Positions 6,181 to 63,921 of a stretch of DNA of 64,000 nucleotides are shown one piece after another (position 1 is the first letter of the stretch; each line of letters opens with the position of its first letter). This stretch comes from Lachnospiraceae bacterium. GTDB lineage: Bacteria > Bacillota > Clostridia > Lachnospirales > Lachnospiraceae. Location of the stretch: contig JAAZZQ010000056.1 in assembly GCA_014239155.1 (NCBI GenBank), forward strand, positions 124,001-188,000, in the 5' to 3' direction. Under the pieces are notes generated by a model. That model did not search any database. It saw nothing but the letters and a program-made list of their open reading frames with translations, and was not told where the DNA came from. The position numbers and the translations under genes are program-made.

Positions 6181-6262
6181 ACTTGGGCGTCCAAATGAAG
6201 TATGTCAGCAAGGCTAACAGACGCCCAGCGCGCAAATAGGGAAGATGAACGTCCCCTGCTCG
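6181..6262 (-). repeat. Structured repeat D1 (degenerate)
   Basis: Read on the minus strand from 6262, the first 30 bases match the start of element D2 at 63791 in about 22 positions (CGAGCAGGGGA against CGAGTAGGGAA, then the shared ATCTTCCCTA). The rest holds a TGGGCGT/ACGCCCA pair (6184-6190 and 6221-6227) around a smaller GTTAGC/GCTGAC stem. It starts 11 bases after the last gene of the locus, while D2 lies at the opposite end in inverted orientation. Confidence 0.55.
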
Positions 6263-6272
6263 ATTATTTGTT

Positions 6273-7355
6273 TTATAGTTGACTTAAATAGTCTTCCCAT
6301 TGTTTGTTTACTTGTTCTGGTGCCAACATCTCTGTAATCTTGTGCGCATTCTCGCGCAGTTTCTGCTCAAAATCTTTGTCTTCAAAGATTCTGCGAAAAG
6401 CATCAGCAAGCGCAAAAGCATCTCCAACTGGTACAAGCAGGCCATTAACACCATGTTCAATCAGCGCTGCTGGTCCTCCGCAGGGGCAGTCTGTAGCAAT
6501 CACAGGAATTCCAAGTGCCATTGCCTCCATAATGGAATTTGGCATACCCTCTGTGTTGGAAGTCAATGTAAAAATTCTAGCCTTTCCAATCCTATCCGCA
6601 ATATCATTTACATTCCCTGGCATAGAAACCCTATCTGTCAGCCCCTTCTCTGCAATTAATGTCTCCAACTTTGTACGAAGCGCTCCTTCCCCATAAATCA
6701 CTAATTTTACGGTTGGATATTCCTCTGCAATTCTACCAAAAGCATGAATGAGCATGATATGATTTTTGTTTTCGTCAAGTCTGCCTGCTGCCACAATCAA
6801 GTCCTCTCTATTGGCACAGACTTTTCTTCCTATAAATTGTGGATTGAGTGGATTTGACAAAATAACACTTTTTCTTCGGACTGCCCTTGGAAAAAACTGA
6901 CTTGCCTGTTCTGTCTGAAGGATAACGCCATCTGCAAAGCGGAAGACAATTTTTGCAATAGACTGCATAAATTTGCCCTCATATTCCATTGTTGGCTCCC
7001 CTCTTACAGAGACAGCTACCTTTATTGGCAAAAATGCTGCCGCCGCCACTGCCATCAAATTATTCTTTCCAAGGAACGATAAAATCACGTCTGGTCTGTA
7101 TGTCTTCCACAGTTTTCTAAGTGTGTGAAACCGAACACAAAAGTTTCGGATTCGTCCTCCTTGAAGCATGGATTCATCTGGCTCTGAATACACACGATGT
7201 ATCTTTGGAGAAATACTATATTCTTTGTCCCTTTGATATTGCGTCACAAGAATCACATCATAATTCTGTCGCAAAAAATATTCTGCCAGATTTACCATGA
7301 CGCGCTCAGACCCACCCTTTTGCAGCGAGCTGATAAATAAAATAATTCTCTTCAT
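6273..7355 (-). CDS. GT4 glycosyltransferase
   Basis: 360-residue GT-B retaining glycosyltransferase (group 1/GT4), cytoplasmic, extending a lipid-linked glycan. Seen: the N-terminal glycine loop KGGSERV at 13-19, the sugar-nucleotide domain entry VAAGRLDENKNH near 190, and the C-terminal E-x7-E type motif in TEGMPNSIMEAMALG near 270, followed by CPCGGP. It closely resembles the product at 9260-10375 (shared ILSNPLNPQFIG/ILNPIDEKFIG segment), so the two are likely paralogs adding similar sugars. Last gene of the long transcript, 15 bases after the AsnB-like gene. Donor and linkage cannot be read from sequence. Confidence 0.9.
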   Translation of the reverse strand: MKRIILFISSLQKGGSERVMVNLAEYFLRQNYDVILVTQYQRDKEYSISPKIHRVYSEPDESMLQGGRIRNFCVRFHTLRKLWKTYRPDVILSFLGKNNLMAVAAAAFLPIKVAVSVRGEPTMEYEGKFMQSIAKIVFRFADGVILQTEQASQFFPRAVRRKSVILSNPLNPQFIGRKVCANREDLIVAAGRLDENKNHIMLIHAFGRIAEEYPTVKLVIYGEGALRTKLETLIAEKGLTDRVSMPGNVNDIADRIGKARIFTLTSNTEGMPNSIMEAMALGIPVIATDCPCGGPAALIEHGVNGLLVPVGDAFALADAFRRIFEDKDFEQKLRENAHKITEMLAPEQVNKQWEDYLSQL

Positions 7356-7370
7356 AGATAAAACCCCGGT

Positions 7371-9257
7371 TTAAACTGAATGTATATAGGTTCTATACCA
7401 CTGTTGAAAAACAAAGAATGCCCACGCGACCTTTGAGTAATTTGCACCGGAAGCTGGTCCCTGATCCCCTGTTCTAAGATATTCACTAATAAATGCATGT
7501 ACATACCGGGCATCAAAAATTTCTTGTTGCTTTAGATATGCTACGCTACACATATCCTGTAACGCTTCTCTTAAAGGTCCCCGCATCCACTTGTCAAGCG
7601 GCACGCCAAATCCTACTTTTGGTCTGTCAAGCAGCTCTCTTGGAATATAATCGTAAGCGATATCTTTCAAGATACGCTTTTTCACGCCATTCGCATATTT
7701 ATAGTCATGTGGCAAGCGATAGGAATATTCCATCACATTGACATCAAGAAGAGGACATCGTGCCTCCAAAGAATATTTCATAGAAGCCCTGTCCACCTTA
7801 CACAAGATGTCCCCGGGCAGATACGTCTCCTCATCTAACAACATTCTGCGCGCCTGCCAGTTGCTTTCCTGATATTTAGACTCTATTGGAAATTTGAATG
7901 GCACACCACTCTCCAAAAGCATTCGGTCAATCACCTTCATATATGTTCTTCCGCCAATCTGTGTCTTGGTCTGCGAATCATGATTTCCTGCCACAACTTG
8001 GACTCGAAACGGAAGACGCTCAAAAAGTCCCAGCGCACGAAACGGTGGAAACTGGCAGACACCATAAGTCATACGTCCAAGCAAATCCAATTTCTGCGCC
8101 TGCGCTACATTGTCATAAATATTATATCCACAAAAAAATTCATCTCCCCCGTCACCAGAGAGCACAACTGTGACATCCTTTGCCGCAAGCTTTGCCACCA
8201 ACATAGATGGTATCTGGGAACTGTCTGCAAAAGGTTCGTCATAGTATTTTGGAATACTATCCACCATGTCAAACATAGACTTTTCATCTATAAAAAGTTC
8301 TGTATGTTGTGTTCCAAGATGTTTAGCAACTGCCTTTGCATACTTTGCCTCATTGTATCGTTCTTCTTCAAAACCAATAGAGTATGTCTTGACTGGCTCA
8401 AAGCTGACCTCCTGTGCAATCGCTGTAACTAGCGAAGAATCATAGCCTCCACTCAAAAAGGCCCCCACTGGCACATCTGCAATCATACGCTTTTTCACAC
8501 TGTCTTTTAAAATCGCTCTAAGTTCTTCTTTTGCCTGCTTATAGGAAAGAACCATCCCCTGCTTTTTTGTACGATATACTGACGCAATATCCCAGTATTT
8601 GTGTTTTGAGAACTTCCCTGCCTGAAACTGAACAATCTGCCCAGGTTCCACTTTATACACATTCTCAAAAACAGAGTCTGGTTCATTGATACACTGCTGA
8701 TACAGATATCGTTTTATTATATCTTTGCGAATATTCTTAGGAAAATTAGGGTATTCCATAATTGGTTTTAGTTCCGACGCAAAGACCAGATTGCTGCCAT
8801 CTCTCCAGTAATATAGCGGCTTCTTGCCAATTCTATCCCGCACAAGAAAGAGTGTTCCTGTCTCTCTATCATAAAGAGCAATTGCGAACATTCCCTGAAA
8901 CCGATCAATACATGCAATGCCCCATCTTAAATATGCCGCTAAAATCACTTCCGTGTCACATTGGGATTGAAACGGATACGCTTTTAGTTCTTCTCGAAGT
9001 TCCAAGAAATTATAAATCTCTCCATTATAGACAATCACCAATCTATTGTCACAGGAATGCATTGGCTGGTGACCAAGCATAGACAAATCCAAAATGGAGA
9101 GACGCCGCTGCGCTAATCCGACTTCGTATCCATCTTTTCCGGCAAAAATCTCCTCTCCGCTGTCATTGGGTCCTCGATGATACATGGTATCATTCATCTG
9201 TTTCAATTGATTTGTTGTTATGCTTTTTGTTGAAATAAATCCACATATTCCGCACAT
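7371..9257 (-). CDS. asnB: Asparagine synthetase-like glutamine amidotransferase (possible sugar amidase, WbpS-like)
   Basis: 628-residue two-domain enzyme. Residues 1 to about 215 are a class II glutaminase with the processed catalytic Cys2 (MCGICGF); residues about 240-600 are the ATP-pyrophosphatase synthetase domain with the SGGYDSS loop near 268. It transfers ammonia from glutamine to an ATP-activated carboxylate. Canonical AsnB makes asparagine, but homologs of this length in O-antigen loci (WbpS of Pseudomonas aeruginosa) amidate uronic acids. The window also encodes a TviB-type dehydrogenase and a C4-epimerase that would supply UDP-GalNAcA, and this gene sits between two GT4 genes, so a sugar carboxamide role is favoured (inference). 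Starts 2 bases after the next gene upstream (9260). Confidence 0.88.
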   Translation of the reverse strand: MCGICGFISTKSITTNQLKQMNDTMYHRGPNDSGEEIFAGKDGYEVGLAQRRLSILDLSMLGHQPMHSCDNRLVIVYNGEIYNFLELREELKAYPFQSQCDTEVILAAYLRWGIACIDRFQGMFAIALYDRETGTLFLVRDRIGKKPLYYWRDGSNLVFASELKPIMEYPNFPKNIRKDIIKRYLYQQCINEPDSVFENVYKVEPGQIVQFQAGKFSKHKYWDIASVYRTKKQGMVLSYKQAKEELRAILKDSVKKRMIADVPVGAFLSGGYDSSLVTAIAQEVSFEPVKTYSIGFEEERYNEAKYAKAVAKHLGTQHTELFIDEKSMFDMVDSIPKYYDEPFADSSQIPSMLVAKLAAKDVTVVLSGDGGDEFFCGYNIYDNVAQAQKLDLLGRMTYGVCQFPPFRALGLFERLPFRVQVVAGNHDSQTKTQIGGRTYMKVIDRMLLESGVPFKFPIESKYQESNWQARRMLLDEETYLPGDILCKVDRASMKYSLEARCPLLDVNVMEYSYRLPHDYKYANGVKKRILKDIAYDYIPRELLDRPKVGFGVPLDKWMRGPLREALQDMCSVAYLKQQEIFDARYVHAFISEYLRTGDQGPASGANYSKVAWAFFVFQQWYRTYIHSV

Positions 9258-9259
9258 AC

Positions 9260-10375
9260 TTAATCTGCCCTTCCTTTCGGAGTTATAATCTCCTCAATAT
9301 AGTCTTTCCACTCCTCAAAAATGCGTTGCGGAGAAGCCATCTGCCCAATCTTTGCTGCATTCTTTCCAAGCTGTCCCGCCAGCTTGCGGTCCTCAATCAA
9401 TCTATTTATCGCTGCTGCTAGGGCATCTCTGTCTCCAACAGGAACAAGCAGACCATTCTTTTCATGCTGAATGACCATACGTGGTCCTCCCGGCGGGCAG
9501 TCTGTGGACACCACCGCAAGCCCTAGTGCCATTGCCTCTAATACCACATTGGGCATCCCTTCATAGTCAGAGGAATACGCGGCTAAAGCTGCGTTGCGCA
9601 TATCCTTTTCCAACGCGCTGCTGCTCCCCATCAACTGTACATATTCTTCTGCATGAAGGCGGCAAATTGTATCCTCCAACTGCTGCTTTGTCCCGTCAAA
9701 AGAGTCTGGACCATAGATTCTAAGTATATAATCTGGGTGCGTTTGATGTACCATTGCAAAAGCATTGATTAACAAGCATTGATTCTTAAAGTCCACCAAC
9801 CGCCCAGAATGGACCACAACTGATTCCCGCTCTTCGGGTATCTCATTTCCAATAAATTTTTCATCAATAGGATTTAATATGATTCTGGAATTTCTGCGCA
9901 CATATTCTGGGAAAAAATCCCGCTGCTGCTGCGTCTGAAATACACAGCCCGCAGCCCGCCGAAAAAGAAATGGTATCTGTATCTTGTCTGACAAAAAATC
10001 ATAATATCCAATTGGATTGATACGGACTGATATCAACACAGGCAGTTTCATACCAATTGTCGCTGTGAGCGCCCTGTAATTGGCTTTGCGTGCAAAAGCA
10101 ATCACAATGTCAGGTTTTACTTTTTTTAAGAAACGGCGGAGATTAAAAATGCGATCCAAAAATTTCTGAATGCGACTGTGTTGTTCCTGTTTTGCGTCAA
10201 GCCCCACATGGACACGCTTCACCCGCGAATGTATCTCGTACTCGTCTTTCCCTTGCCATTCTGTCGCAATATACACTTCATATCCATGTTCTGCAAACTG
10301 ACCTGAAAGAGTTGCAACCACACGTTCTGCACCGCCTCTTTCCATACAATTCAAATGAAAAACAATCCGTTTCAT
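9260..10375 (-). CDS. GT4 glycosyltransferase
   Basis: 371-residue GT4 enzyme. Seen: MERGGAERV N-terminal glycine loop near residue 11, VVHSGRLVDFKNQ at the start of the donor domain, and YEGMPNVVLEAMALG with the E-x7-E pair. The open frame extends to 10435, but the ATG at 10375 is chosen because the family N-terminus (MKRIVFHLN) begins there, GAGGA lies just upstream, and it follows the preceding stop by 5 bases rather than overlapping it. Close paralog of the GT4 at 6273. The neighbouring AsnB-like gene suggests action on an amidated or uronic acid glycan (inference). Confidence 0.88.
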   Translation of the reverse strand: MKRIVFHLNCMERGGAERVVATLSGQFAEHGYEVYIATEWQGKDEYEIHSRVKRVHVGLDAKQEQHSRIQKFLDRIFNLRRFLKKVKPDIVIAFARKANYRALTATIGMKLPVLISVRINPIGYYDFLSDKIQIPFLFRRAAGCVFQTQQQRDFFPEYVRRNSRIILNPIDEKFIGNEIPEERESVVVHSGRLVDFKNQCLLINAFAMVHQTHPDYILRIYGPDSFDGTKQQLEDTICRLHAEEYVQLMGSSSALEKDMRNAALAAYSSDYEGMPNVVLEAMALGLAVVSTDCPPGGPRMVIQHEKNGLLVPVGDRDALAAAINRLIEDRKLAGQLGKNAAKIGQMASPQRIFEEWKDYIEEIITPKGRAD

Positions 10376-10380
10376 ATTCC

Positions 10381-11757: not shown

Positions 11758-11768
11758 ACGATCTCCTC

Positions 11769-12953: not shown

Positions 12954-12954
12954 A

Positions 12955-13740: not shown

Positions 13741-13768
13741 GTGATTTCTTCCCTTTCCTCCATAATTT

Positions 13769-13914
13769 ATTACTATTCACGGTCTAGAAGACCACTTATA
13801 GCAACAATTCGGGCGATATTTCAAGTTTTGCCTCGCAAAAATCGCCCCTCACTTCTCAATCATGTTCTCACGAAACGCGCAATTTATGCGCATTCCTACA
13901 CCGTGAAAAGTAAC
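13769..13914 (+). repeat. Structured repeat A1 (146 bp, terminal inverted repeats)
   Basis: Ends ATTACTATTCACGG (13769-13782) and CCGTGAAAAGTAAC (13901-13914) are near-perfect inverted repeats. Inside are GGTCT-AGA-AGACC, a strong hairpin GGGCGAT...ATCGCCC enclosing TTTTGC-CTC-GCAAAA, and GCGCA-ATTTA-TGCGC. About four in five bases match element A2 (28337-28482) over its full 146-base length, in opposite orientation. No reading frame of interest. Confidence 0.85.
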
Positions 13915-13920
13915 TATAAT

Positions 13921-15060: not shown

Positions 15061-15085
15061 AATTTTTCCCTCTAACTTTATCTTC

Positions 15086-19588: not shown

Positions 19589-19590
19589 TT

Positions 19591-22324: not shown

Positions 22325-22338
22325 CTTATCAGCTCCTA

Positions 22339-23499: not shown

Positions 23500-23532
23500 A
23501 ATACCCCTCCTTTTCTGTACCCTTATATTCAT

Positions 23533-23563: not shown

Positions 23564-23603
23564 GCAAATCAAAATGGTGAAATCTCTCATTTTACTCTAT
23601 GTT

Positions 23604-28336: not shown

Positions 28337-28482
28337 GTTACTTTTTACGGGGTAGGAATGCGCATAAACTGCGCATTCCGTGAGAATATGATTCAGAAAT
28401 GAGGGGCAATTTTTGCGAAGCAAAACTTTTAATATCGCCCCGAATCGTTACTATGGGCGGCTTCCATGCCGTGAATAGTAAC
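28337..28482 (-). repeat. Structured repeat A2 (146 bp, terminal inverted repeats)
   Basis: Read on the minus strand it begins GTTACTATTCACGG and ends CCGTAAAAAGTAAC. Internal hairpins: GTTACTAT...ATAGTAAC, then GGGGCGAT...ATTGCCCC enclosing TTTTGC-TTC-GCAAAA, then GGAATGCGCA-GTTTA-TGCGCATTCC. Full-length match to A1 in the opposite orientation. The first 54 bases are translated as the end of the preceding glycosyltransferase. Confidence 0.88.
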
Positions 28483-29412
28483 GGGAGTATTGTCTGTTTC
28501 CTCACGGATTACATACTGTGGAGAATTGTTGATACTGATATAGATTCGCCCAATATACTCTCCAATCAATCCTAACATAATCATAAGCATACCACCAATA
28601 AAAACAGTTGCCGCCATCAGAGAGCTAAATCCCATTGGCACCGCAGGGTTTACAATTTTTTTAATAATCGTATAAATCCCATATAAAAATCCCCCGACAG
28701 CAAAGGTAACTCCTGTGATGGTGGCAATCCTTAGCGGCAGTATAGAAAATGCCGTAAACCCATTAAACCAAAGCGCCATTAACTTCTTCATTGTATAACC
28801 AGAAGCCCCCACTTCACGGCTTCTGTGCTGCACAGGAACATTGGTAATATTTCTTGTAGAGCGCAACACTAGACCAATAATATAAGGATAGCTGTTCTCA
28901 TATTCCAACATACTGTCAACTACAAACCGCCTTGCTGCAAAGTAGCTGGTCAAGTGCAAGTCTTTCGGTTTCCCAAGCATAATCCTTGTCATAATATCAT
29001 TCATCCAAGTGCCAAAATTGCGAAAGGCACTATGCTTTTTATTGTCATAGCTTGCATAGACCACATCACTACCATTCTCTATGCCATCTATCAGTTTTCC
29101 TACCTCATCTGCAGGCGTCTGTCCATCGTCATCTAGGCACACCACAATATCTCCGTCTGCCTTGCGCAACCCCGCCATCAGCGCCGCGTGCTGTCCAAAG
29201 TTCTTTGCCAAGCTAACTCCTGATATATTATTATATTTTTGGGCAAGTGCGGTGATTACCTCATAAGTATCATCAGGCGAACAGTCGTTTATTAGAAAGA
29301 TATCATACTCATACTCCTTCATAGTCTGCATCGTCTCTCTTATTTCCGCCACGACTCCCTCAAGAGTCCTTGCGCTCCGATAGCAGGGAATGACAAAACT
29401 TATTTTACTCAT
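28429..29412 (-). CDS. GT2 polyprenyl-phosphate glycosyltransferase (GtrB/ArnC-like)
   Basis: 327 residues. The GT-A domain has VIPCYRSARTL, LINDCSPDDT and the DXD-type CLDDDGQTP near 92; two C-terminal membrane helices at about 230-300 give the GtrB/dolichol-phosphate-mannose-synthase-like form. It would move a sugar from its nucleotide to undecaprenyl phosphate for external glycan decoration. Odd: family homology stops near YVIREE, and the last 17 residues and the stop come from repeat A2 (from Val-Thr-Ile-His-Gly onward), an insertion-derived tail. The polytopic protein at 30004 is a possible partner that uses the lipid-linked sugar (inference). Confidence 0.9.
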   Translation of the reverse strand: MSKISFVIPCYRSARTLEGVVAEIRETMQTMKEYEYDIFLINDCSPDDTYEVITALAQKYNNISGVSLAKNFGQHAALMAGLRKADGDIVVCLDDDGQTPADEVGKLIDGIENGSDVVYASYDNKKHSAFRNFGTWMNDIMTRIMLGKPKDLHLTSYFAARRFVVDSMLEYENSYPYIIGLVLRSTRNITNVPVQHRSREVGASGYTMKKLMALWFNGFTAFSILPLRIATITGVTFAVGGFLYGIYTIIKKIVNPAVPMGFSSLMAATVFIGGMLMIMLGLIGEYIGRIYISINNSPQYVIREETDNTPVTIHGMEAAHSNDSGRY

Positions 29413-33112: not shown

Positions 33113-33172
33113 ATTACTATTCGCGGCATAAAAGGCGCTCATAATAACGATTCGAGGCGACATTAGAAGTTT
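33113..33172 (+). repeat. Structured repeat A3 (truncated)
   Basis: ATTACTATTCGCGG and the following bases match the first ~60 bases of elements A1/A2 (ATAATAACGATTCGAGGCGA against ATAGTAACGATTCGGGGCGA). The match ends at GTTT, where the reading frame of the 33163 gene begins. Its TTAGAAGTTT supplies that gene's Asn-Phe-stop. Confidence 0.75.
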
Positions 33173-39073: not shown

Positions 39074-39211
39074 AGTAACAGTTCAGACAAGCTGACCTGT
39101 TACTGCAAAAATCCATTGAAGATCGCCTTTGGCAATGGGATTTTTGCTCTCAAGGCTTATGTTTTCATAAGGTCTTCGCAGGTCTTGCGAAGACCTGTTT
39201 GAACTGTTACT
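39074..39211 (+). repeat. Structured repeat B1 (138 bp)
   Basis: Ends AGTAACAGTTCAGAC and GTTTGAACTGTTACT are inverted repeats. Hairpins in order: AGTAACAG...CTGTTACT enclosing TCAG/CTGA; GCAAAAATC...GATTTTTGC; CTTATG-TTTT-CATAAG; AGGTCTTCGCA-GGTCT-TGCGAAGACCT (perfect 11-base stem). Same order of stems as B2 with different arm sequences. The pseI stop codon (39207-39209) is inside the right terminal repeat. Confidence 0.85.
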
Positions 39212-40268
39212 CCAGATCACAATCTATATCAGAAAAAGATAATGGTGTGCCGCGCTTTAAATCGCGCTTTGCAGTTTGCCCTAATACTTTTTTGTAATAC
39301 TTTGGTTTTAATCCATATGCTGGCCGAATACTTCTAATATTATCTGGTGTGAGCACTTCCCCCGCCGCAATGTCCTGCACCACAAATAAAGACCGCCGAA
39401 AACATGTATTGCTTTCCTCTTGGCTAGAAACACCATAGTGGACTGTTCCCAACGCCTTTTCCACCTCGCGCACTTGACAAACCATATCCCGAAATTCTTC
39501 TGGCTCCATAGAAAAACTAGAATCTGGATTTTTAATAGCACGACTCATACAGAAATGCTTTTCAATTAGGTTGGCGCCAAGCGCAGTTGCAGTTGCAGCG
39601 CTAAACGCCCCCATAGAATGATCAGAAAGCCCCACCGGAATGCCAAATCGTTCCTTCATATCGCGAATCATACACAGATTCATCTCTTCACTTTTTGCTG
39701 GGTAAGCACTTGAACATTTCATTAGCGCAAGCTGTTTGTTTCCTGTACTGTAAATCGCCGCAACTGCTTCCTCAATCTCCTCCAAAGTTCCCATTGCTGT
39801 TGACATAATGATTGGTTTCTGCTTTGATGCAATGTATTCTAGTAAAGGAATATCCACCAGTTCAAAAGAAGCAATTTTGTAAAATGGTACTCCAAGATTC
39901 TCAAGAAAATCAACAGAAGTTGTGTCAAATGGTGTTGAGAGAAAATCTATCCCCACTTTTGCAGCCTCGTCGCAAAGCTGTTTTTGCCATTCCCACGGCG
40001 TATATGCCTTCTGATACAGTTCGTAGAGATTCTCCCCTCCCCAAGTGCCTTTTCCAATCTGGAAATATTCATTCTGACAGTTTATTGTCATCGTATCTGC
40101 TGTGTAAGTCTGTATCTTTACACAGTCTGCACCGGCGTCTTTTGCCACATGAATCAGTTCCAACGCCCGCTCAATACTGCCCGCATGGTTTGCAGACATT
40201 TCCGCAATAATATAGGCAGGGCATCCATCTCCAATAATCCGTTCGTTTATATTAATTGTACTTCCCAT
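39207..40268 (-). CDS. pseI: Pseudaminic acid synthase (PseI)
   Basis: 353-residue NeuB-family synthase: TIM-barrel with PAYIIAEMSANHAGS near 16, VKIQTYTADTMT, MSTAMGTLEEIEEAV, LMKCSSAYPA and EKHFCMSRAIKNPDSSFSMEP, and a C-terminal antifreeze-like SAF domain (SLFVVQDIAAGEVLTPDNIRSIRP). It condenses 2,4-diacetamido-trideoxy-altrose with phosphoenolpyruvate. The signatures fit PseI better than sialate synthase. Its start overlaps the end of pseF by 17 bases. Its stop codon lies inside the terminal repeat of element B1. Confidence 0.93.
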   Translation of the reverse strand: MGSTININERIIGDGCPAYIIAEMSANHAGSIERALELIHVAKDAGADCVKIQTYTADTMTINCQNEYFQIGKGTWGGENLYELYQKAYTPWEWQKQLCDEAAKVGIDFLSTPFDTTSVDFLENLGVPFYKIASFELVDIPLLEYIASKQKPIIMSTAMGTLEEIEEAVAAIYSTGNKQLALMKCSSAYPAKSEEMNLCMIRDMKERFGIPVGLSDHSMGAFSAATATALGANLIEKHFCMSRAIKNPDSSFSMEPEEFRDMVCQVREVEKALGTVHYGVSSQEESNTCFRRSLFVVQDIAAGEVLTPDNIRSIRPAYGLKPKYYKKVLGQTAKRDLKRGTPLSFSDIDCDLE

Positions 40269-43201: not shown

Positions 43202-43234
43202 TTTATTTCCTCCATTTTTGCAAAATCCTTTGAT

Positions 43235-43310
43235 TGCAGGCGTGCGAATCCATAATCTGTCAGCAGAGCTGACTCACACGCCGCAACAAGAATACCAATA
43301 GCATTCTTAA
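43235..43310 (-). repeat. Structured repeat C1 (76 bp) in the pse leader
   Basis: On the minus strand it reads AAGAATGCT-ATT-GGTATTCTT, then GCGTGTGAGTC...GATTCGCACGC enclosing GTCAGC-TCT-GCTGAC. It matches C2 (47431-47506) in 64 of 76 positions, inverted. Changes in the first stem keep it paired (GCC/GGC in C2, GCT/GGT with G-U pairs here). It starts just after the predicted transcription start, so it would be in the pse mRNA leader. Confidence 0.8.
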
Positions 43311-43312
43311 AT

Positions 43313-43341
43313 ATTTTACCATAACTTTCCTTGCCCGTCAA
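43313..43341 (-). promoter_or_regulatory. Sigma-A-like promoter of the pse operon
   Basis: TTGACG (43341-43336), 17-base spacer, TAAAAT (43318-43313) on the minus strand, one of the best consensus matches in the window. It sits between repeat B3 and repeat C1, about 110 bases before pseB. Confidence 0.7.
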
Positions 43342-43344
43342 AAA

Positions 43345-43418
43345 GTATAAGTTTCTCAACCATTACACTTTCCCACGGACTTTGCAGCGCAATGCAAAGT
43401 CCTGTCTGAACCGTTACA
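43345..43418 (+). repeat. Structured repeat B3 (right half only)
   Basis: Matches the right half of B2: TTCTCAACC, GGACTTTGCA...TGCAAAGTCC (10-base stem, loop GCGCAA) and a terminal TCTGAACCGTTAC. The left hairpins are absent. It lies 22 bases past the SGNH-type gene and directly upstream of the pse promoter. Confidence 0.75.
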
Positions 43419-47389: not shown

Positions 47390-47430
47390 ATGATTCCACT
47401 CCCTTTCCAATATTTGGCACGACCAATCAT

Positions 47431-47506
47431 CTAAGAATGCCATCGGCATTCTTGTTGCGGCGTGTGGCTCAGCTCGTCTGACATATTACAGATTCGCACA
47501 CCTGCA
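47431..47506 (+). repeat. Structured repeat C2 (76 bp)
   Basis: AAGAATGCC-ATC-GGCATTCTT is a perfect 9-base stem, followed by GCGTGTGGCTC...GATTCGCACAC. It matches C1 in 64 of 76 positions, in the opposite orientation. Bases 47507-47621 beyond it hold a weaker CTGAGTC/GGCTCAG pairing near 47525-47553 and no gene. Confidence 0.8.
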
Positions 47507-47621
47507 CTCTCGGCGGATACTTATCTGAGTCAGCGGTTGCACTCCCACTGAGCCAAAATTGTATTTTACCCGCCAGTTATAGAAGCGCGAATCTTTTCCG
47601 GCTGAGATAAAATTATTTGTG

Positions 47622-49361: not shown

Positions 49362-49414
49362 TGATACTTCACCCCTTCGCGTTCCTTGGATATTATCTGC
49401 ACGCCAAACCACTT

Positions 49415-50533: not shown

Positions 50534-50554
50534 TTATAATCCCTCGCCTATATT

Positions 50555-50693
50555 CGTAACAGCTCAGCCTTCGGCTTCCTGTTACGTGCATCAAGCCATG
50601 CAAAACTACTTCGTAGTGGCTTGATGCTTCTCAACCGCAACACTGTTTTACGGACTTTGCAGTAAATGCAAAGTCCTAGACTGAACTGTAATC
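50555..50693 (+). repeat. Structured repeat B2 (139 bp)
   Basis: Hairpins in order: CGTAACAG...CTGTTACG enclosing GCC-TTC-GGC; GCATCAAGCCA...TGGCTTGATGC (perfect 11-base stem) enclosing CTAC-TTC-GTAG; GGACTTTGCA-GTAAA-TGCAAAGTCC; then the terminal repeat TGAACTGTAAT. Same plan as B1 with different stems. The downstream end of the 50676 gene runs into it. Confidence 0.85.
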
Positions 50694-51890
50694 TATACTC
50701 GCATTTCTAGTATATTGATAGCCTTTCCTTGGCGCAATCAGTGGCGCTGGACTTAGCGGTCCCTCTTTTTCTGGCGTCACACGCCCTTCTATCAATCCCT
50801 CACAAAACCGATAAAGCCTGTCCGCAGCCTCCTTTGGATTCCACAGGTTTACAATTGTATCATACGCGTTCCTTCCCAACTTTTTTTGCAATTCCATGTC
50901 CTGACATAAGGTCAATACCTGTCGCTGAAATTCCCGATAATGCCCTGTTTTATAGACCAATCCATTATTGTTATGCTTTATTAAAAACGGGACTGCCCCA
51001 ATGCCGCTTCCCGCCACAACTGCGCAGGCACTATTCATTGACTCATTTAAAACTGCTCCCCAGCCTTCCAGATAATTGCTGGTAAACAGAAAAATATTCG
51101 CTTCTTCCATAAAACGTCGCACTTTCTGCGGCGGCTGAAATCCATGAAATGTAACTCTGTGTTCCAGATGCCAATTGTGTACAAGTTCTAAAAGTGTTTC
51201 GGCAAGTGCTCCATCTCCGACCATATCCAGATGAAAACAAACGTTTTGTTGTTCAAGAAATCTTGCCACTTTAATCGCATATTCTGGGTGCTTTAACTTC
51301 AAAAAACGCCCTGCCCACAAAATTTGAATCTCTGGTTTAGCACTCTGGTTAAAATGCTGTTTTCCCTCAAACAATCTATCCAAATCATAAGTATTTACTG
51401 CTGGAAAATATCCCCAGACAAACTTTTTTTCTGGATATGCATGAACCAGCGCAAAATCAGACGCCACATAGGCACCATGACACAACAAATAAACTGGTGC
51501 ATTTGCATATTGTGTGTGATCCTCATACTTTTTCTTTCTGCCACGCGGAGAGATTGATTTCCACTGCCCTTCCCGATACAAACGCTCACTGGCACGAATC
51601 ACAATCTTCCCCGCATTTAATCTAGGCTTAATATAACGCTCATCTTCAACGCCTCCAAACACCACTACATCACTGTCCAGAATCAACTTGGCACACTGTT
51701 CTGGCTCCTGATAGAACAGCATAAGATAAGGAATCGCGCGCACTTCACTCCCCCAGCCCATTTTTACGCGTTCCTCTTCCATTGGGGAAGTCTGTATAAA
51801 AGCAAACTCTGTGCCAAGCCTTTGATAGAGCGCGTTCGCCATTGGTATTTGATGATGATTAATATAGTTCGATACAATTGTTAATCGCAT
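50676..51890 (-). CDS. GT4 glycosyltransferase
   Basis: 404-residue GT4 enzyme: NYINHHQIPMANAL near the N-terminus (a family variant with HHQ in place of the GG loop), ILWAGRFLKLKHPEYAI near 195, and TSNYLEGWGAVLNESMNSACAVV near 290 with the E-x7-E pair. Starts within the end of the preceding GT4 gene (32-base overlap). The last residues (after Ala-Ser-Ile-Asp) and the TAG stop lie inside repeat B2. Sugar specificity unknown. Confidence 0.88.
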   Translation of the reverse strand: MRLTIVSNYINHHQIPMANALYQRLGTEFAFIQTSPMEEERVKMGWGSEVRAIPYLMLFYQEPEQCAKLILDSDVVVFGGVEDERYIKPRLNAGKIVIRASERLYREGQWKSISPRGRKKKYEDHTQYANAPVYLLCHGAYVASDFALVHAYPEKKFVWGYFPAVNTYDLDRLFEGKQHFNQSAKPEIQILWAGRFLKLKHPEYAIKVARFLEQQNVCFHLDMVGDGALAETLLELVHNWHLEHRVTFHGFQPPQKVRRFMEEANIFLFTSNYLEGWGAVLNESMNSACAVVAGSGIGAVPFLIKHNNNGLVYKTGHYREFQRQVLTLCQDMELQKKLGRNAYDTIVNLWNPKEAADRLYRFCEGLIEGRVTPEKEGPLSPAPLIAPRKGYQYTRNASIDYSSV

Positions 51891-53169: not shown

Positions 53170-53198
53170 ACAATCCCCTTCTCCTGAACCCTATAAAC

Positions 53199-53242
53199 TG
53201 TAACAGTTCAGCCTTTGGCTTCCTGTTACAAGCTGTTACTAT
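53199..53242 (+). repeat. Structured repeat B4 (left hairpin only)
   Basis: TGTAACAG...CTGTTACA pair perfectly around GCC-TTT-GGC, followed by AGCTGTTACT. It matches the left hairpin of B2, but the outermost pair is T-A rather than C-G (A-T in B1). The stop codon of the GT2 gene at 53226 lies within it. Confidence 0.7.
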
Positions 53243-54050
53243 AAACCACTTTTTTGATTTTATTATAGATTCCTGATAAATGCCGATTTCCTGCAATCGC
53301 ACTTCGCAGCGGCGCCAAGGTCAATAACAAAATCAATCGGTATTTATCAGCTTTTTTTCTACCCATATAGTGTACCACAATCTCGCGATGTTGGCGAGCA
53401 GAACGCTTTTTGTTTTCCCGTGTCTCAGAATAGCCGCCTCCCTCATACGATGCAACCACCACAGGCACATACAAAATCTCTGCCTTTCGCTCATAAAAAC
53501 ACCATAGAAAATGTTCATAGTCTGCTCTTACAGTATACTCTGTTCGATATGCTCTCATGTCAAACATTGTACGATGATAAAAACAAGTCTGATGACAAGG
53601 CACATTTCGATAACAAGTGAAATCATTCATTTGCGGCGATGCATATATCACAGTCTGCTGCGCCTTATGATATAGATTTCCATATACAATATCCGCTTGA
53701 TGTCCCACTCGCCGAAGCTTTTTAATCTCCTCTGTTATTTTTTCTAGCACTTTTGCATGATAAAAACTATCCCCTGTATTTAAAAACAGAAAATATGTTC
53801 CATTCGCCAATGCTACCGCCTGATTCATCGCGTCATAAATGCCTTTGTCTTTTTTGATATGCACATGAAGCCGTGCGTCTGTATACCGCTCTGCAAGCGT
53901 CTTTACAGAACCGTCTGAGGAATCCCCATCTTTTATAATCACTTCATAGTTAGAATAGGTCTGTTCTAAAATACTATCTATTGTATCATAGAGCCGCTGG
54001 CCAGAATTTAGACAAACAATAATAATACTGTAAAAAATTTCTTGTCCCAT
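53226..54050 (-). CDS. GT2 glycosyltransferase
   Basis: 274-residue GT-A family 2 enzyme of the WcaA/colanic-type short form: SIIIVCLNSGQRLYDTIDS, VIIKDGDSSDGSVKTL, AMNQAVALANGTYFLFLNTGDSF near 82 (the DXD is replaced by an NTGD form common in this subfamily), and CHQTCFYHR near 150. Its last residues (Ser-Asn-Ser-Leu) and stop fall within repeat B4. ATG 54050, 24 bases after the EpsG-like gene. Confidence 0.9.
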   Translation of the reverse strand: MGQEIFYSIIIVCLNSGQRLYDTIDSILEQTYSNYEVIIKDGDSSDGSVKTLAERYTDARLHVHIKKDKGIYDAMNQAVALANGTYFLFLNTGDSFYHAKVLEKITEEIKKLRRVGHQADIVYGNLYHKAQQTVIYASPQMNDFTCYRNVPCHQTCFYHRTMFDMRAYRTEYTVRADYEHFLWCFYERKAEILYVPVVVASYEGGGYSETRENKKRSARQHREIVVHYMGRKKADKYRLILLLTLAPLRSAIAGNRHLSGIYNKIKKVVYSNSL

Positions 54051-54074
54051 ACCATTCCATTCCTTCCCTTTTCT

Positions 54075-55262: not shown

Positions 55263-55275
55263 AAAAGCCTCCTTC

Positions 55276-56058: not shown

Positions 56059-56098
56059 CGAAATCCCACCTCCTTCCTACGCTCAGCATTACAAAAAA

Positions 56099-58556: not shown

Positions 58557-58582
58557 TGTCCAGCCTCCTGCCCACAATGCAG

Positions 58583-59365
58583 TTAAATCCGTCTCAACAC
58601 AGCCCGAAATGCCCAGAAAAACATACAGTACACACTTTCTGCGACAGACAGCTTCTCCTGTCTGCGATACAGATTCCAAATTCTTTTGACTGCTGTCAGT
58701 TTGTTTGACGACAATGTATCTGCGCTTCTTCTGTACCTTACCAGATTCTTATCAATTCCATATCCCGCACCATGCCTTTTTAGAATCTGCCACCATGCGG
58801 CTGTATCCTCACTTGCAATCTGCGGCATATAAATATCTTCGTCTGGGATTTTCTCTCTGTCAATCATCACTGTGGAAGTAAAAATTGTTGTATTTTTTAG
58901 TGCCTGTCGGTATGTGATACGTCTAGGTACATGTACCACCTTTCCCAGCCCTTCTCCAGACACATCTGCAAATTCATACCCCATAAACACAAAGCCAGCA
59001 TTGGCATTTTCTGTCTGTTGTATGGTTCTTAGCGATTCCAACTCTACAGCAAGCTTATCCGGCAGCCAAATATCATCTGCATCCAAATAACAGATGTACT
59101 GCCCACAAGCCTCTCTGACACCTCTGTTTCTCGCCTCCGCCGCACCACTATTTTCCTTGAGCGACACAAGTTTTATACGCTGGTCTGCGCTGCTTTTTTC
59201 CTGAATATATTCCTGACTCTTATCGCGCGAACAATCATCCACCAACAAAAGTTCCCAGTTTGTATAAGTTTGTGCCTGCACATAATCAATCGTCTGTCGA
59301 ATAAACTGTTCTGCATTGTATACTGGCACAATAATACTTACAACCCCTGCTTTTTTTTCGCCCAT
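58583..59365 (-). CDS. GT2 glycosyltransferase
   Basis: 260-residue GT-A family 2 enzyme: VSIIVPVYNAEQFIRQTID, LLLVDDCSRDKSQEYI, GAAEARNRGVREACGQYICYLDADDIWLP with DXD near 90, and ASEDTAAWWQILKRHG near 185, a pattern like WcaA/TuaG-type transferases. ATG 59365 lies 2 bases after the preceding GtrB-like gene. Likely adds an EPS backbone or side sugar. Confidence 0.92.
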   Translation of the reverse strand: MGEKKAGVVSIIVPVYNAEQFIRQTIDYVQAQTYTNWELLLVDDCSRDKSQEYIQEKSSADQRIKLVSLKENSGAAEARNRGVREACGQYICYLDADDIWLPDKLAVELESLRTIQQTENANAGFVFMGYEFADVSGEGLGKVVHVPRRITYRQALKNTTIFTSTVMIDREKIPDEDIYMPQIASEDTAAWWQILKRHGAGYGIDKNLVRYRRSADTLSSNKLTAVKRIWNLYRRQEKLSVAESVYCMFFWAFRAVLRRI

Positions 59366-59367
59366 GC

Positions 59368-60309
59368 CTAAAACTCTTCCTTTACAAGATATTTGGGCCG
59401 GTCCTTTACTTCCATATACATTTTACTCATATACTGCCCCATAATGCCAAGACAGAGCAATTGAACCCCTCCAATCAGAGAGATAATGCACATCATAGAG
59501 GGCCAACCAGCGACCGGGTCCCCGTAAATTAGCGCTCTGACAAAGATAAAAATCATAAACACAAACGCGACAACGCAAAATAAAATCCCAAATATAGACG
59601 CAATCGACAAGGGCGCTGTCGAAAATGCCATAATTCCATCCAAAGAATATAAAAATAATTTCCAGAAAGACCATTTTGTCTCGCCTGCTGCCCGCTGTAC
59701 ATTTTCATACTCAATCCATTTTGTCTGGTATCCAACCCAACCGAAAATTCCTTTAGAAAAGCGGTTGTACTCCCGCATAGACAAAATCGCATCTGTCACC
59801 TTCCGCGTCATTAATCTGTAATCTCTTGCTCCATCAACAATCTCCGTCTTGGAAATCTTTCGCATAAGCCCATAAAATCTTCTGGCAAAAAATGAGCGAA
59901 TTGGCGGTTCTCCTTTTCTGTCCACACGCCTTGTCGCCACAGAGTCATACCCTTGTTCTATATACTGATACATTTCTGGCAGAATTGCTGGCGGGTCCTG
60001 CAAATCTGCATCCATTAATACAGTAAAGTCCCCTGTCGCCTTCTCAAGCCCTGCTATAATCGCAGCTTCCTTGCCAAAATTTCGGGAAAACGAGACGAGA
60101 TGCACCCGCGCATCTTGTTCCCGCAGCGCTCTCACCGCACGCACAGTTCCATCTTTAGAACCATCATCTATAAATATAAACTCAAACTCCACATCCTTCT
60201 CATGGAAAAAAGATTCCTGTTTCACTGCTTCTGCATAAAAAAGCGGCACACTCTCCTCCTCATTATAACAGGGCACAATAATACTCAACATCTTTGCATA
60301 TGCCTTCAA
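59368..60309 (-). CDS. GT2 polyprenyl-phosphate glycosyltransferase (GtrB-like)
   Basis: 313 residues: LSIIVPCYNEEESVPLFY, FIFIDDGSKDGTV, SFSRNFGKEAAIIAGLEKATGDFTVLMDADLQDPP with DADLQDPP near 95, then two C-terminal membrane helices (about 225-295). Typical of GtrB/CsbB/ArnC enzymes that make undecaprenyl-P-sugar for external side-chain addition or lipoteichoic acid decoration. No GtrA flippase-like gene is adjacent. TTG 60309 is chosen because GGAGG lies 8 bases upstream; ATG 60291 is the alternative. Confidence 0.9.
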   Translation of the reverse strand: MKAYAKMLSIIVPCYNEEESVPLFYAEAVKQESFFHEKDVEFEFIFIDDGSKDGTVRAVRALREQDARVHLVSFSRNFGKEAAIIAGLEKATGDFTVLMDADLQDPPAILPEMYQYIEQGYDSVATRRVDRKGEPPIRSFFARRFYGLMRKISKTEIVDGARDYRLMTRKVTDAILSMREYNRFSKGIFGWVGYQTKWIEYENVQRAAGETKWSFWKLFLYSLDGIMAFSTAPLSIASIFGILFCVVAFVFMIFIFVRALIYGDPVAGWPSMMCIISLIGGVQLLCLGIMGQYMSKMYMEVKDRPKYLVKEEF

Positions 60310-60350
60310 CTGCTTATCCTCCAATTCACTTATCGGACTCTATTGTACTT

Positions 60351-60716
60351 CTATATCAATCCGGCTATCTTCGCTATAACCTCCGTGTTTGTTGGTCTTG
60401 TAGTTCTATTATTATAGCTTTTCTCAAATAATGTTTTAAAGCTTTCAGATTCTTCTGCGTTCCATGCTGTCTCTATCGCATTTCGTATTGCACGCTCAAC
60501 CTGTTTATCTGTAGTATTATAACGCTTTGCCACCTCTGGATACAAACGTTTTGTGACAGCGGTCAAAGTTTCAGGTTCTTGACAGGCTATCAGAATTGCT
60601 TCCCTCAAATAGCGGTATCCCTTCTGTCTCGCCCGAAATCCGAATCTAATCATATGGTATGTAGTTTGTCTGAGGATATCTGCTCTCGAACACTCATCAT
60701 CCATATTTACTTTCAT
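60351..60716 (-). CDS. Stand-alone Spo0A C-terminal DNA-binding domain protein
   Basis: 121 residues aligning by eye with the whole effector domain of Spo0A: MIRFGFRARQKGYRYLREAI (entry helix), LTAVTKRLYPEVAKRYNTT, and the recognition-helix segment VERAIRNAIETAWN, ending RPTNTEVIAKIAG. There is no receiver domain, so it cannot be phosphorylated like Spo0A. It could bind 0A-box-like DNA constitutively and control this locus (inference). ATG 60716 follows AGGA by 4 bases; a GTG codon directly precedes it. It is inside the operon between gmd/fcl and the GT2 genes. Confidence 0.88.
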   Translation of the reverse strand: MKVNMDDECSRADILRQTTYHMIRFGFRARQKGYRYLREAILIACQEPETLTAVTKRLYPEVAKRYNTTDKQVERAIRNAIETAWNAEESESFKTLFEKSYNNRTTRPTNTEVIAKIAGLI

Positions 60717-60738
60717 CACATCCTAATTCGCCAAATTT

Positions 60739-61680
60739 CTATAATCTAGCGTTTCCTGCATTCTCACAAAACCATTCGTAAGCAAGACGGATACCCTCTT
60801 CAAGAGCCACTTTATGAGTCCAACCCAATTCGTGAAGCTTTGTCACATCGGTAAGTTTTCTTGGTGTACCATCTGGCATGTCCTTATTCCAGACAATTTC
60901 CCCCTGGTAGCCAACCACACGCTGAACCGTGTTGGCAAGTTCGCTGATAGAAACCTCCTCCCCTGTACCAATATTGACATGTTGTTCTCCATCATAATGT
61001 TCCAACAAAAACACACAAGCATCTGCCATATCATCCACATACAAAAATTCCCGCAGTGGTGTTCCTGTTCCCCACAATTCTACAGTTGATGTATTCTTTT
61101 GTTTCGCGTCATAAAATTTTCGAATCATTGCCGGCATCACATGGGAACCCGAAAGGTCATAATTATCATAGGGACCATAGAGATTTGTTGGCATACAACT
61201 AATAAAATTATCTCCGTACTGCCGTTTAAAAAATTTGCACATTTCCAGCCCTGCAATCTTTGCGATTGCATATGCCTCATTTGTCTCCTCCAATGGTCCT
61301 GTCAGCAGTGCATTCTCCGGAATCGGTTGCGGCGCCATGCGGGGATAAATACAAGTACTTCCTAGAAACAGCAGCTTTTTTACCTGATAATCATGGCAAC
61401 ACTTAATTACATTGCACTGAATCTGCATATTTTCATAGGCAAAATCCGCAGGCGTCGTATTGTTGGCGTTAATTCCGCCAACTTTCGCCGCCGCAAGAAT
61501 CACTATGTCTGGCCGCTGTTCCTCAAAAAAATCCCAAACTGCTTGTTGATTTGTAAGATCAAGCTCTCTGTGCGTCCTGCCAATCACATTCTTGTATCCA
61601 TTTTTGTCAAGACTCCGCATAATCGCGGAGCCAACAAGCCCTCTATGTCCTGCCACATAGATTTTATCAGATTGGTTCAT
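60739..61680 (-). CDS. fcl: GDP-L-fucose synthase
   Basis: 313-residue SDR epimerase/reductase: [18 protein letters not shown]-terminal NADP site, [27 protein letters not shown], and the catalytic YAIAK near 135, with [13 protein letters not shown] characteristic of Fcl/WcaG. It turns GDP-4-keto-6-deoxymannose into GDP-L-fucose, directly after Gmd. The gene starts within the last bases of gmd (14-base overlap). Confidence 0.94.
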
Positions 61681-62755
61681 CTCTTCCTTCCCTTCTTTGC
61701 GCCCTGTATTCCGCGCATGAAATCCTTGCTGCTGTTCTTAAGTCAGCATCCATCATCATAGAAACAAGCCCCTTAAAATCGACTTTTCGTTTCCAGCCAA
61801 GTTCTTTTTCCGCCTTTGCTGCATTTCCCCATAAAAACTCTACTTCTGCTGGTCGGTAAAACTCAGGGTTGACATCAACAAGCAGTTTTCCGCTTTCCGA
61901 ATCATATCCTTTTTCCTTGACTCCTTCTCCTTCCCAGCGGATTATAATTCCCAACTCACCAAATGCCGCCTCAACAAACTGGCGTACTGTATGTGTCTCA
62001 TTGGTGGCGAGCACATAATCTCCTGGTACATTCTGCTGAAGCATCAGCCACATACCCTCCACATAATCTCCTGCAAATCCCCAATCTCTTTTCGCATTCA
62101 TATTTCCCAGTGAAAGTTTGTTCTGTTTTCCAGCAATAATATTCGCAATAGCAAGGGTGATTTTCCTTGTCACAAAGTTCTCACCGCGCCGTGGCGATTC
62201 ATGGTTAAACAAAATACCATTGCACGCAAACATATTGTAAGATTCCCTATAGTTCACCGTGATCCAATAAGAATACAATTTTGCCACGCCATATGGACTT
62301 TTTGGATAAAATGGGGTTGTTTCACTCTGCGGCGCTGTCTCAGGAAGTCCGCCAAAAAGCTCTGATGTGGACGCCTGATAATATCTACAGTTTCCACCAT
62401 TTACCCGAATCGCTTCAAGTAGTTTTAGCGTGCTCACTCCTGTCGCATCCGCAGTGTATTCTGGAACCTCAAACGACACACCCACGTGGGACTGTGCAGC
62501 AAGATTATAAACCTCTGTCGGTCTAATTTCACCAATAATTCGCATTAGATTTGAAGAGTCCGTCGTGTCTGCAAAATGGAGAAAAAATTTAATTTTATAA
62601 TACTCGGACTGAATCAGATGATCAATGCGCATTGTATTGGATATGCTGTGCCTGCGAATCAATCCGTGCACTTCATATCCCTTTGCCAAAAGAAACTCTG
62701 CCAGATAAGAGCCATCCTGTCCTGTTATTCCTGTAATCAACGCTATATTATTCAT
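61667..62755 (-). CDS. gmd: GDP-mannose 4,6-dehydratase
   Basis: 362 residues: [19 protein letters not shown] near 5, [36 protein letters not shown] and [19 protein letters not shown] with the catalytic Tyr-x3-Lys near 150, then [16 protein letters not shown]. These are diagnostic of Gmd. It makes GDP-4-keto-6-deoxymannose for GDP-L-fucose. GDP-mannose-forming genes are not in the window. A 72-base gap separates it from rfbD. Confidence 0.95.
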
Positions 62756-62827
62756 GTAAACCTTTTTTCCTTTCCAGATCTATCTTCCAATCTCTTCCAT
62801 TTCCCCTTTTAGTATACAGATACTTTG

Positions 62828-63703
62828 TCAATATGACAAGTCCTTTATATATTCTGCAATAGCCTTTTCCCAATCTGCAAATCTGTAATCTGTCGTCAAA
62901 CTTAGCATATAATTTTCAAGCACAGAATACGCTGGTCTTGGCGCAATAATCCCTTTTGCATTTTTGTCATACTGTTCTGTTGTCACTGTCTCAACAATCG
63001 TATGTTTACCAGTAAGTCTATAGATTTCTCTTGTGAAATCAGCCCAGTTTGTAATCCCCTCACAAGTGCCGTGAAAGAGTCCAAAATTATCTGTTGGCAG
63101 CAGATGAACAATCGCCCCTGCAAGTTCGTCGGCACTTGTAGGAGAGCCAAACTGATCGCCTACAACCGTCACGCGATCATGTTGTTTAGACAAACCAAGC
63201 ATTGTCTTTACAAAATTTTTTCCATCGCCATACAGCCATGCCGTGCGGACAATAAAATATTCTTGTGCAAATTCCTTGACAAACTGCTCTCCTGCAAGCT
63301 TGGTCTTCCCATATACTGCCTTGGGATTCGGTCTGTCAAACTCCGTGTATGGTGTACTTGCAGTTCCATCGAATACATAATCCGTAGAGATATGCATCAG
63401 TCGTGCATGGTATCTTGCCGCAGCAATACTTAAATTTCTTGGTCCAATTGCATTAATCTTGTATGCATTATCCACATCTGTCTCACAGCCATTTACATTG
63501 GTGTGCGCTGCACAGTTGATGATTGCAAACGGTTTCACTTCCGCTACAAACTTGTCCACTGCCTCTATATTTGTAATATCAAGCTCTCCCACATCTGTGT
63601 TCACACACTCATATTCTGTGCTGTTTTGATATCTCTTATTGATTGCGCGTCCTAGCTGTCCATTACAACCTGTAACAATTATTCTCTTTTTTCCAAGTAC
63701 CAT
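62828..63703 (-). CDS. rfbD: dTDP-4-dehydrorhamnose reductase (RmlD-like)
   Basis: 291-residue SDR of the RmlD/MAT2B type: VTGCNGQLGRAINKRY near 10, INCAAHTNVNGCETD, MHISTDYVFDG, and YGKTKLAGEQFV with Tyr-x3-Lys near 130. It reduces dTDP-4-keto-rhamnose to dTDP-L-rhamnose. No rmlA, rmlB or rmlC is present here, so they must be elsewhere, or the enzyme acts on another 4-keto sugar. ATG 63703 is chosen; the frame also opens at TTG 63712, which is too close to AAAGGA. First gene after the locus promoter. Confidence 0.9.
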   Translation of the reverse strand: MVLGKKRIIVTGCNGQLGRAINKRYQNSTEYECVNTDVGELDITNIEAVDKFVAEVKPFAIINCAAHTNVNGCETDVDNAYKINAIGPRNLSIAAARYHARLMHISTDYVFDGTASTPYTEFDRPNPKAVYGKTKLAGEQFVKEFAQEYFIVRTAWLYGDGKNFVKTMLGLSKQHDRVTVVGDQFGSPTSADELAGAIVHLLPTDNFGLFHGTCEGITNWADFTREIYRLTGKHTIVETVTTEQYDKNAKGIIAPRPAYSVLENYMLSLTTDYRFADWEKAIAEYIKDLSY

Positions 63704-63761
63704 AAAATCCAATTTCCTTTCCTGTATTCCTTATCTTTTCTCCGAATCCTAAAGACTATTC

Positions 63762-63789
63762 ATTGTAAGGGAAACAAAACATTTTACAA
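63762..63789 (-). promoter_or_regulatory. Sigma-A-like promoter at the head of the glycan locus
   Basis: TTGTAA (63789-63784), 16-base spacer, TACAAT (63767-63762) on the minus strand, about 60 bases before the rfbD start. The -35 box begins 2 bases from repeat D2. No operator or structured leader is obvious after it. Confidence 0.6.
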
Positions 63790-63790
63790 T

Positions 63791-63921
63791 CGAGTAGGGA
63801 AATCTTATCTTCCCTACTCGCCGCGCGACCTACGTGCCACGTTAGTGGCTTATTTCCTCTGCACGGATCTGTGCATAAAATTAGTCCGAAGCAGCTTCGG
63901 ACCAATCTCATTCCCTACTCA
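63791..63921 (+). repeat. Structured repeat D2 (131 bp)
   Basis: CGAGTAGGGAA (63791-63801) pairs perfectly with TTCCCTACTCG (63810-63820), and a second TTCCCTACTC ends the element at 63911-63920. Between lie GCCAC-GTTA-GTGGC, TGCAC...GTGCA and GTCCGAAG-CAG-CTTCGGAC. Same plan as the A and B elements. It fills most of the gap between ptsH and the locus promoter and contains the ptsH stop codon. Confidence 0.8.
63874..63902 (-). terminator. Possible ptsH terminator inside repeat D2
   Basis: GTCCGAAG-CTG-CTTCGGAC forms a perfect 8-base stem on the minus strand 13 bases after the ptsH stop, followed by TAATTTTATG. The short T-tract makes this a moderate candidate only; it is also one of the standard hairpins of the repeat. 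Confidence 0.4.

Follow-up and report, generated by a model that had tools for sequence, protein, structure and literature searches.

What are the short palindromic repeats that lie between the genes of a surface-polysaccharide region in a Lachnospiraceae bacterium, and what keeps their stems paired? The region is a 64,000-nucleotide stretch, hereafter the window, covering positions 124,001 to 188,000 of contig JAAZZQ010000056.1 (assembly GCA_014239155.1; 98.4% complete, host genome 4.57 Mb). A preliminary description had placed elements of three groups, A, B and D, in one family with a common architecture and differing sequences, resembling either a miniature inverted-repeat transposable element (MITE) or a structured RNA. 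We found that the A and B elements are almost certainly MITEs of the IS66 family, ISBst12-like in type, and that D is a separate repeat.

The A and B elements are 136–146 bp long and have no coding capacity; neighbouring open reading frames (ORFs) at most enter their edges. Their ends are GTWAC...GTWAC, with the terminal repeat GTAACAGTTCAG in B and GTTACTwTTCACGG in A. The terminal inverted repeats start with GTAA in B and with a close variant in A, where the third base is T, not A. A full-length B copy carries three palindromes, the first being the left end followed by its own inward complement. The four full-length copies in the window (A1, A2, B1 and B2) lie where they had been described to within 1–2 bases, the extra outer bases being flank beyond the GTWAC ends, and profile searches recovered the partial copies A3, B3, B4 and D1 (Table 1).

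After deduplication of all full-length A and B copies in the gathered loci (L numbers), the sequences abutting their GTWAC ends on either side were compared. Across 108 distinct full-length copies, identity over eight flanking bases was 0.808, against 0.304 for mispaired flanks (z 33.5). An exact 8-bp duplication flanked 40 of the 108, compared with an average of 0.00 for mispaired flanks, and among flank lengths of 4–14, eight alone stood out. Duplications matching at 7/8 positions or better occurred in both groups (A, 5/9; B, 68/99).

GTAA-like ends combined with 8-bp repeats are typical of IS66, and we therefore suspected this family. One report describes 'GTAAGCG' ends with 8-bp repeats (PMC11946415), and another gives an 8-bp repeat together with the ends GTGACTACTCAGCA / GTAACTGCTCAGCA for ISDge4, an ISBst12-group element of Deinococcus geothermalis (PMC12898284). 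PF03050 had no match in the host genome, so we turned to its relatives for the partner; within the host's genus, PF03050 was present in 18 of 38 genomes. We scanned 30 IS66 loci for elements that combine an exact 8-bp duplication with inverted ends alike at 11/16 positions or more. Two were returned, each having A-type ends: L239 (2323 bp; exact duplication, ends 16/16 alike; GTTACTTTTCACGGGT) and L225 (2251 bp; ends 12/16 alike; GTTACTGTTCAC). A counterpart for B came from Lachnospiraceae bacterium CE91-St56 (L400), a 1886-bp IS66 element with the ends GCAACAGTTCAG / GTAACAGTTCAG, in which a 520-aa IS66 ORF (PF03050, E 6.5e-18) lies between GCAACAGTTCAGACGG and GTAACAGTTCAGACAG. Three copies of TAATTGGA occur at this locus: before the insertion sequence (IS), after it past one extra C, and after an adjoining MITE. 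That MITE (L400:2389-2493) is 105 bp long, sits directly behind the IS66 element and has matching 16-bp ends and the same target sequence. At a further locus (L234), a 118-aa IS66 remnant stands between two perfect B ends, GTAACAGTTCAG.

Each of L400, L239 and L225 has one long ORF of 520–582 aa, with shorter open frames upstream too (for example 136 aa in L239). Over 74 loci, some of them overlapping, the motif GTWACWNTTCA[CG] pointed outward at 21 of 140 IS66 ORF ends (at distances of up to about 160 bp) and inward at 1 of 140. Searches with the L234 fragment led to no autonomous element whose B ends are both perfect, either as protein (matches in 18/299 family genomes) or as DNA (matches in 5/38 genus genomes). 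Among the gathered loci, no longer element with B ends and a duplication of at least 7/8 exceeded 283 bp, the 280–283-bp cases being two tandem copies, and an IS66 hidden Markov model had no match over the repeat-bearing loci gathered by genome searches. A transposase gene with matching terminal repeats, which the preliminary description had named as something to look for, is thus present in relatives (L239 and L225 for A, L400 for B) and absent as a PF03050 match from the host genome. For A and B, the terminal inverted repeats, the 8-bp duplications and the IS66 elements with the same ends bear out the MITE reading. We propose that related IS66 elements would supply the DDE transposase that mobilises A and B in trans, recognising the GTWAC ends and leaving 8-bp target duplications.

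A and B form one family sharing one plan: a covariance model built from 61 B copies and no A copies (R1) matched A2 over its full length (E 6.4e-7) as well as A1 (E 0.0087). The further genome-wide copies that this family had been expected to have are present, with at least 146 R1 matches in the host genome (150 of 1612 candidates scored) and, for DNA queries, at least 39 (A2), 42 (B2) and 39 (B1) matches (40 candidates scored each). Of 16 genomes searched with R1, mostly picked as carriers of the repeats, 13 had matches and three (G027, G036 and G048) were without. The exact hairpin-1 pattern was found in 24 of 60 relatives, made up of 24/36 same-genus genomes, host included, and 0/24 genomes from the order's other families; the reversed pattern occurred in none of the 60. 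Among the matches listed, named genomes with the B hairpin-1 pattern were Lachnospiraceae and other Clostridia. The B2 region had no match in phage records, and one contig of the viral_contigs set contained an exact palindrome.

The common plan, comprising a terminal arm, its complement closing hairpin 1, a middle hairpin, a hairpin closed by GCA-N5/6-TGC and the opposite arm, is real for A and B. Hairpins 2 and 3 together have 18 pairs, and across 93 distinct B copies these were Watson–Crick in 1590 of 1661 ungapped cells (the remainder being 20 G-T, 29 A-C and 22 other), well above the 314–476 of 1674 cells obtained with slid partners. The stems also covary, as had been claimed. In a 61-copy B alignment with 21 pairs, 95.5% of cells were paired and both sides had changed in 17 of the 21 pairs, a figure reached by 0 of 500 shuffles; the covariation score was 0.295, compared with 0.117 for shuffled and at most 0.074 for slid pairs. 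The example originally offered for covariation, an outer pair of hairpin 1 that is A-T in B1, C-G in B2 and T-A in B4, turned out to be a poor one: the base belongs to the target duplication, outside the element, and is complementary in 37/88 copies against 28.8 when shuffled, with about 3% of shuffles as high. Some B copies are longer, at 152–170 bp, and have an extra inner hairpin of 15–18 nt (for example TGGCTTATAAAGCCA) and duplications too (L019, L028, L029, L031, L055, L098; L364-L366).

An intergenic repeat can covary strongly without being an RNA gene. Were the elements structured regulatory RNAs, transcribed within mRNAs and keeping their fold on site for stability, termination or attenuation, covariation of three stems would be in keeping with it, as would the position of the elements at gene ends, 31 of the 68 tandem cases having an upstream ORF that stops between −27 and +11 bases from the element. 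The mismatches, the orientation and the youngest copies speak against such a role. The stems show no excess of G-T over A-C (20 vs 29), and when each copy is oriented by its neighbouring genes the counts are 15 vs 11; acceptor stems of 22 tRNAs from the same loci, a crude control with many misregistered pairs, gave 13 vs 5 (Fisher p 0.03). Orientation to genes is not fixed (29 sense and 39 antisense in 68 tandem contexts), and no Rfam family was reached at the gathering threshold in the window. In young copies, with loop divergence below 6%, the stem-to-loop rate ratio was 1.02 and 55 pairs were broken against 1 compensated, so that pairs are lost at a neutral rate; at a loop divergence of 30–50%, 73% of changed pairs were compensated. 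The mismatch counts and the comparison of young with old copies point to the DNA level and to the moving lineage. Selection on a folded RNA at each site, as previously suggested, is therefore improbable. Free decay of young copies, together with intact pairing in old lineages, assigns the pairing to the copying lineage, and it is probably preserved in that mobile lineage rather than at the insertion site.

Within the copying lineage, pairing may either matter or be renewed at the DNA level. Hairpin or cruciform formation could help to unite two ends that are only about 137 bp apart, and we tentatively propose, at somewhat less than even chance, that the pairing is preserved because it is helpful to transposition. 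Mutation itself offers another route. Quasipalindrome correction is template switching in which one arm of a palindrome is rewritten from the other, and pairing kept in this way would suit the near-perfect Watson–Crick pairing with few wobble intermediates, the better pairing of hairpin 1 than of the element's terminal repeats (98.1% vs 91.8% of pairs kept) and the change of arms as wholes (the 93 copies contain 41 different arm pairs for hairpin 3 and 42 for hairpin 2). However, the 55 broken pairs against 1 compensated in the youngest copies mean that correction is not fast in resident copies, and the fixed lengths and conserved TCTCA / ACGG linkers, judged by eye, suggest constraint beyond palindromes. 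We regard restoration by template switching as rather unlikely, although the data do not discriminate between it and an aid to transposition.

The first hairpin also occurs alone, as palindromes of 28–32 bp. Exact palindromes of the form GTAACAGTTCAG-N-CTGAACTGTTAC were found in 8/8 named genomes searched. In an earlier, broader set of solos, only 13/49 had a duplication of at least 7/8; several of the remaining ones were pieces of longer elements, and the duplication test was therefore redone on exact palindromes. The test covered 75 of 134 counted places, from six genomes (G359, 9/9; G360, 14/14; G361, 9/9; G363, 31/31; G366, 3/3; G364, 9/20), with those of G362 (0/7) and G365 (0/41) outside it. 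A duplication of at least 7/8 lay directly outside the 29–32 bp in 34 of the 75 palindromes and was 8/8 in 22, compared with a mean of 0.09 and a maximum of 1 for mispaired flanks. A further 24 sit in a longer element with a duplication of at least 6/8, and 15 fit neither arrangement at that threshold. Solos of 28 bp with an 8/8 duplication were seen at L120 and L189, and the host genome has two of 29 bp with 8/8 (L363, L369) among 15 stretches fetched. The hairpin of B4, the solo unit in the window, is without a target duplication, its flanks agreeing at 2/8.

The element's right end recurs as the right half of hairpin 1, so that deletion between direct repeats would leave exactly such solos. 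The stretch lost would lie between direct CTG(AA)CTGTTAC-type copies, one at the end of hairpin 1 and one at the right terminus. Short remnants left by deletion between direct repeats, with the original duplication still flanking them, are familiar from solo long terminal repeats and from the nearly precise excision of Tn10; here the remnant would be a single MITE hairpin. The solos might instead transpose as units, an idea favoured by their own duplications, by a length that is constant per genome, by identical units at different targets and by the two 8/8 cases in the host. Yet longer copies with the same first hairpin occur in the same genomes (24/75; R1 matches in 6/6), so deletion between direct repeats accounts for the solos, and among duplications of at least 6/8 those of solos are less often perfect than those of longer copies (22/36 vs 20/24), as if older. 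We hold with good confidence that the solo palindromes are deletion remnants of longer copies, and consider their transposition as units unlikely.

A bolder version, to which we give slightly less credence still, is that these 28–32-bp palindromes, built of head-to-head terminal repeats with 3–8 bases between them, are themselves mobile and the smallest transposons known. A cruciform palindrome would then offer the transposase two full terminal-repeat duplexes with their tips meeting at the junction, and the hairpins of longer elements would likewise unite the ends without bending some 100 bp of DNA. If hairpins aid the transposition of short DNA, or if 30-bp palindromes move, this bears on the minimum size of a transposon.

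Taken as a whole, an explanation by IS66-family MITEs moved in trans, with pairing kept in the copying lineage and solos as remnants, appears well founded to us, and several observations weigh against it. No resident partner is seen in the host. The flanks of A2 agree at only 5/8 positions and those of B1 at only 3/8. L234 has no target duplication (3/8). In L400, the left end has one mismatch, an extra C separates the right end from TAATTGGA, and the exact duplication encloses the IS and the MITE together. No intact element turned up in which both B ends are perfect, and the same exact-duplication scan of later loci returned L404 (11/16), which lacks GTWAC ends, and one spurious case on masked bases. 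As to the pairing, the interval on the young-copy rate ratio is wide (0.27–1.69), and the sense orientation is only slightly the rarer (29/68), which leaves room for a role in either orientation.

The D elements, a terminator-adjacent repeat, stand apart from the A/B family. R1 had no match with E up to 1 at D1 or D2 in the window, and in the copy alignment D shares no terminal repeats with A or B; the single family proposed for the three groups accordingly holds for A and B, where R1 built from B matches A1 and A2, and excludes D. As a DNA query, D2 had at least 45 host matches (40 candidates scored), most over its first 90 bases only, and D copies share about 90 bp (63791-63880), with tandem units in L046 and L059. 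The right arm described for D2 (~63911-63921) falls outside this common part. The 45 bases after a D copy fold at −12 kcal/mol or lower in 22 of 27 placed copies (of 30), and the mean fold downstream of D is −15.2 kcal/mol, compared with −5.4 kcal/mol for random stretches. These hairpins mostly resemble intrinsic terminators; in L066 the hairpin is that of D. The D repeats (window 6174-6262 and 63791-63880; L039-L068) perhaps insert behind intrinsic terminators.

Ten ORFs tested in the window mark it as a region of surface-polysaccharide type, with glycosyltransferases, NeuB, RmlD and a polysialyltransferase-like product. The glycosyltransferase ORF 28429-29412 (-) runs 54 bases into A2, and ORF 50676-51890 (-) runs 17 bases into B2. 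The TAA stop codon of the NeuB-family ORF 39207-40268 (-) falls inside the right terminal repeat of B1 (window 39207-39209). In 7 of the 68 tandem cases, the GTAAC end supplies the TAA stop codon of the adjoining ORF by an exact 4-base overlap; for annotators, some ORF stop codons are the TAA of a MITE's GTAAC end. Two further repeats lie in the window: an 81-nt inverted repeat pair (43232-43312 and 47429-47509; 84% complementary, 4.1 kb apart) that the A, B and D profiles do not match, and a 104-nt direct repeat (901-1004 and 1027-1130; 80% identical, 126 nt apart).

Table 1. Repeats of groups A, B and D in the window, with strand, search score and associated sequences.
Feature	Window coordinates	Strand	Score	Remarks
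D1	6174..6262	-	profile E 0.00057	diverged D-type repeat adjoining intrinsic-terminator-like hairpin
A1	13769..13914	-	profile E 7e-46	full-length A-type MITE, 146 bp; ends on own strand GTTACTTTTCACGG / ATTACTATTCACGG; flanks AAATTATA / AAATTATG, 7/8 alike
A2	28337..28482	+	profile E 1.6e-48	full-length A-type MITE, 146 bp
A3	33114..33172	-	profile E 1.2e-10	partial A copy, profile positions 87-146
B1	39075..39210	+	covariance model E 2.7e-25	full-length B-type MITE, 136 bp
B3	43354..43417	+	profile E 1.7e-13	right half of a B copy
B3, longer span	43307-43417		covariance model E 8.6e-11	
B2 target duplication, left copy	50548..50555			CTATATTC; 7/8 identical to 50693-50700
B2	50556..50692	+	covariance model E 8.8e-29	full-length B-type MITE, 137 bp
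B2 target duplication, right copy	50693..50700			CTATACTC
B4	53200..53231	+	profile E 0.00019	solo hairpin-1 unit, GTAACAG...CTGTTAC
B4, covariance model span	53200-53302		covariance model E 9.7e-5	
D2	63791..63880	+	profile E 6.2e-28	D-type repeat, then hairpin

The MITE is an already known kind of element. IS66-type MITEs with a maintained multi-hairpin structure and solo forms seem to be undescribed in the literature searched, which excluded most subscription journals and ISfinder: it yielded no account of these repeats, and the terminal sequence used as text led to two unrelated papers. In a major family of gut bacteria, they would thus form a group of mobile repeats that is abundant and apparently undescribed. 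Correia/NEMIS, RUP and BOX are small intergenic palindromic repeats of high copy number; A and B are like them in size, palindromes and copy number, and have 8-bp duplications and IS66 partners. Repeats of the REP/BIME kind, moved by a RAYT (Y1-type) transposase, are also palindromic, intergenic and abundant, and D occurs in tandem units as well; given the 8-bp duplications and DDE-type ends of A and B, we consider it highly improbable that they are repeats of this kind. Like A and B, the ISBst12 group of IS66 has GTAAC-type ends and 8-bp repeats (the ISDge4 end GTAACTGCTCAGCA of PMC12898284, compared with GTAACAGTTCAG and GTTACTTTTCAC here), and the longer relatives of A and B have an IS66 DDE transposase, as that group does. 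Unlike ISBst12-group elements, A and B are only 136–146 bp long, non-coding and equipped with three palindromes, and by eye the three hairpins are not visible at the ends of the full IS66 elements L239, L225 and L400. Bacterial MITEs such as QMITE2 are, according to a MITE review (PMC10969869), likewise short and intergenic with terminal inverted repeats, and have direct repeats of 7–9 bp; transcripts of bacterial MITEs are predicted there to form stable stems, and the term 'IS66' does not occur in that text. Compared with these, the A and B elements stand apart in having stems that covary, as tested over 93 and 61 copies, and in occurring as solo 28–32-bp forms with duplications.

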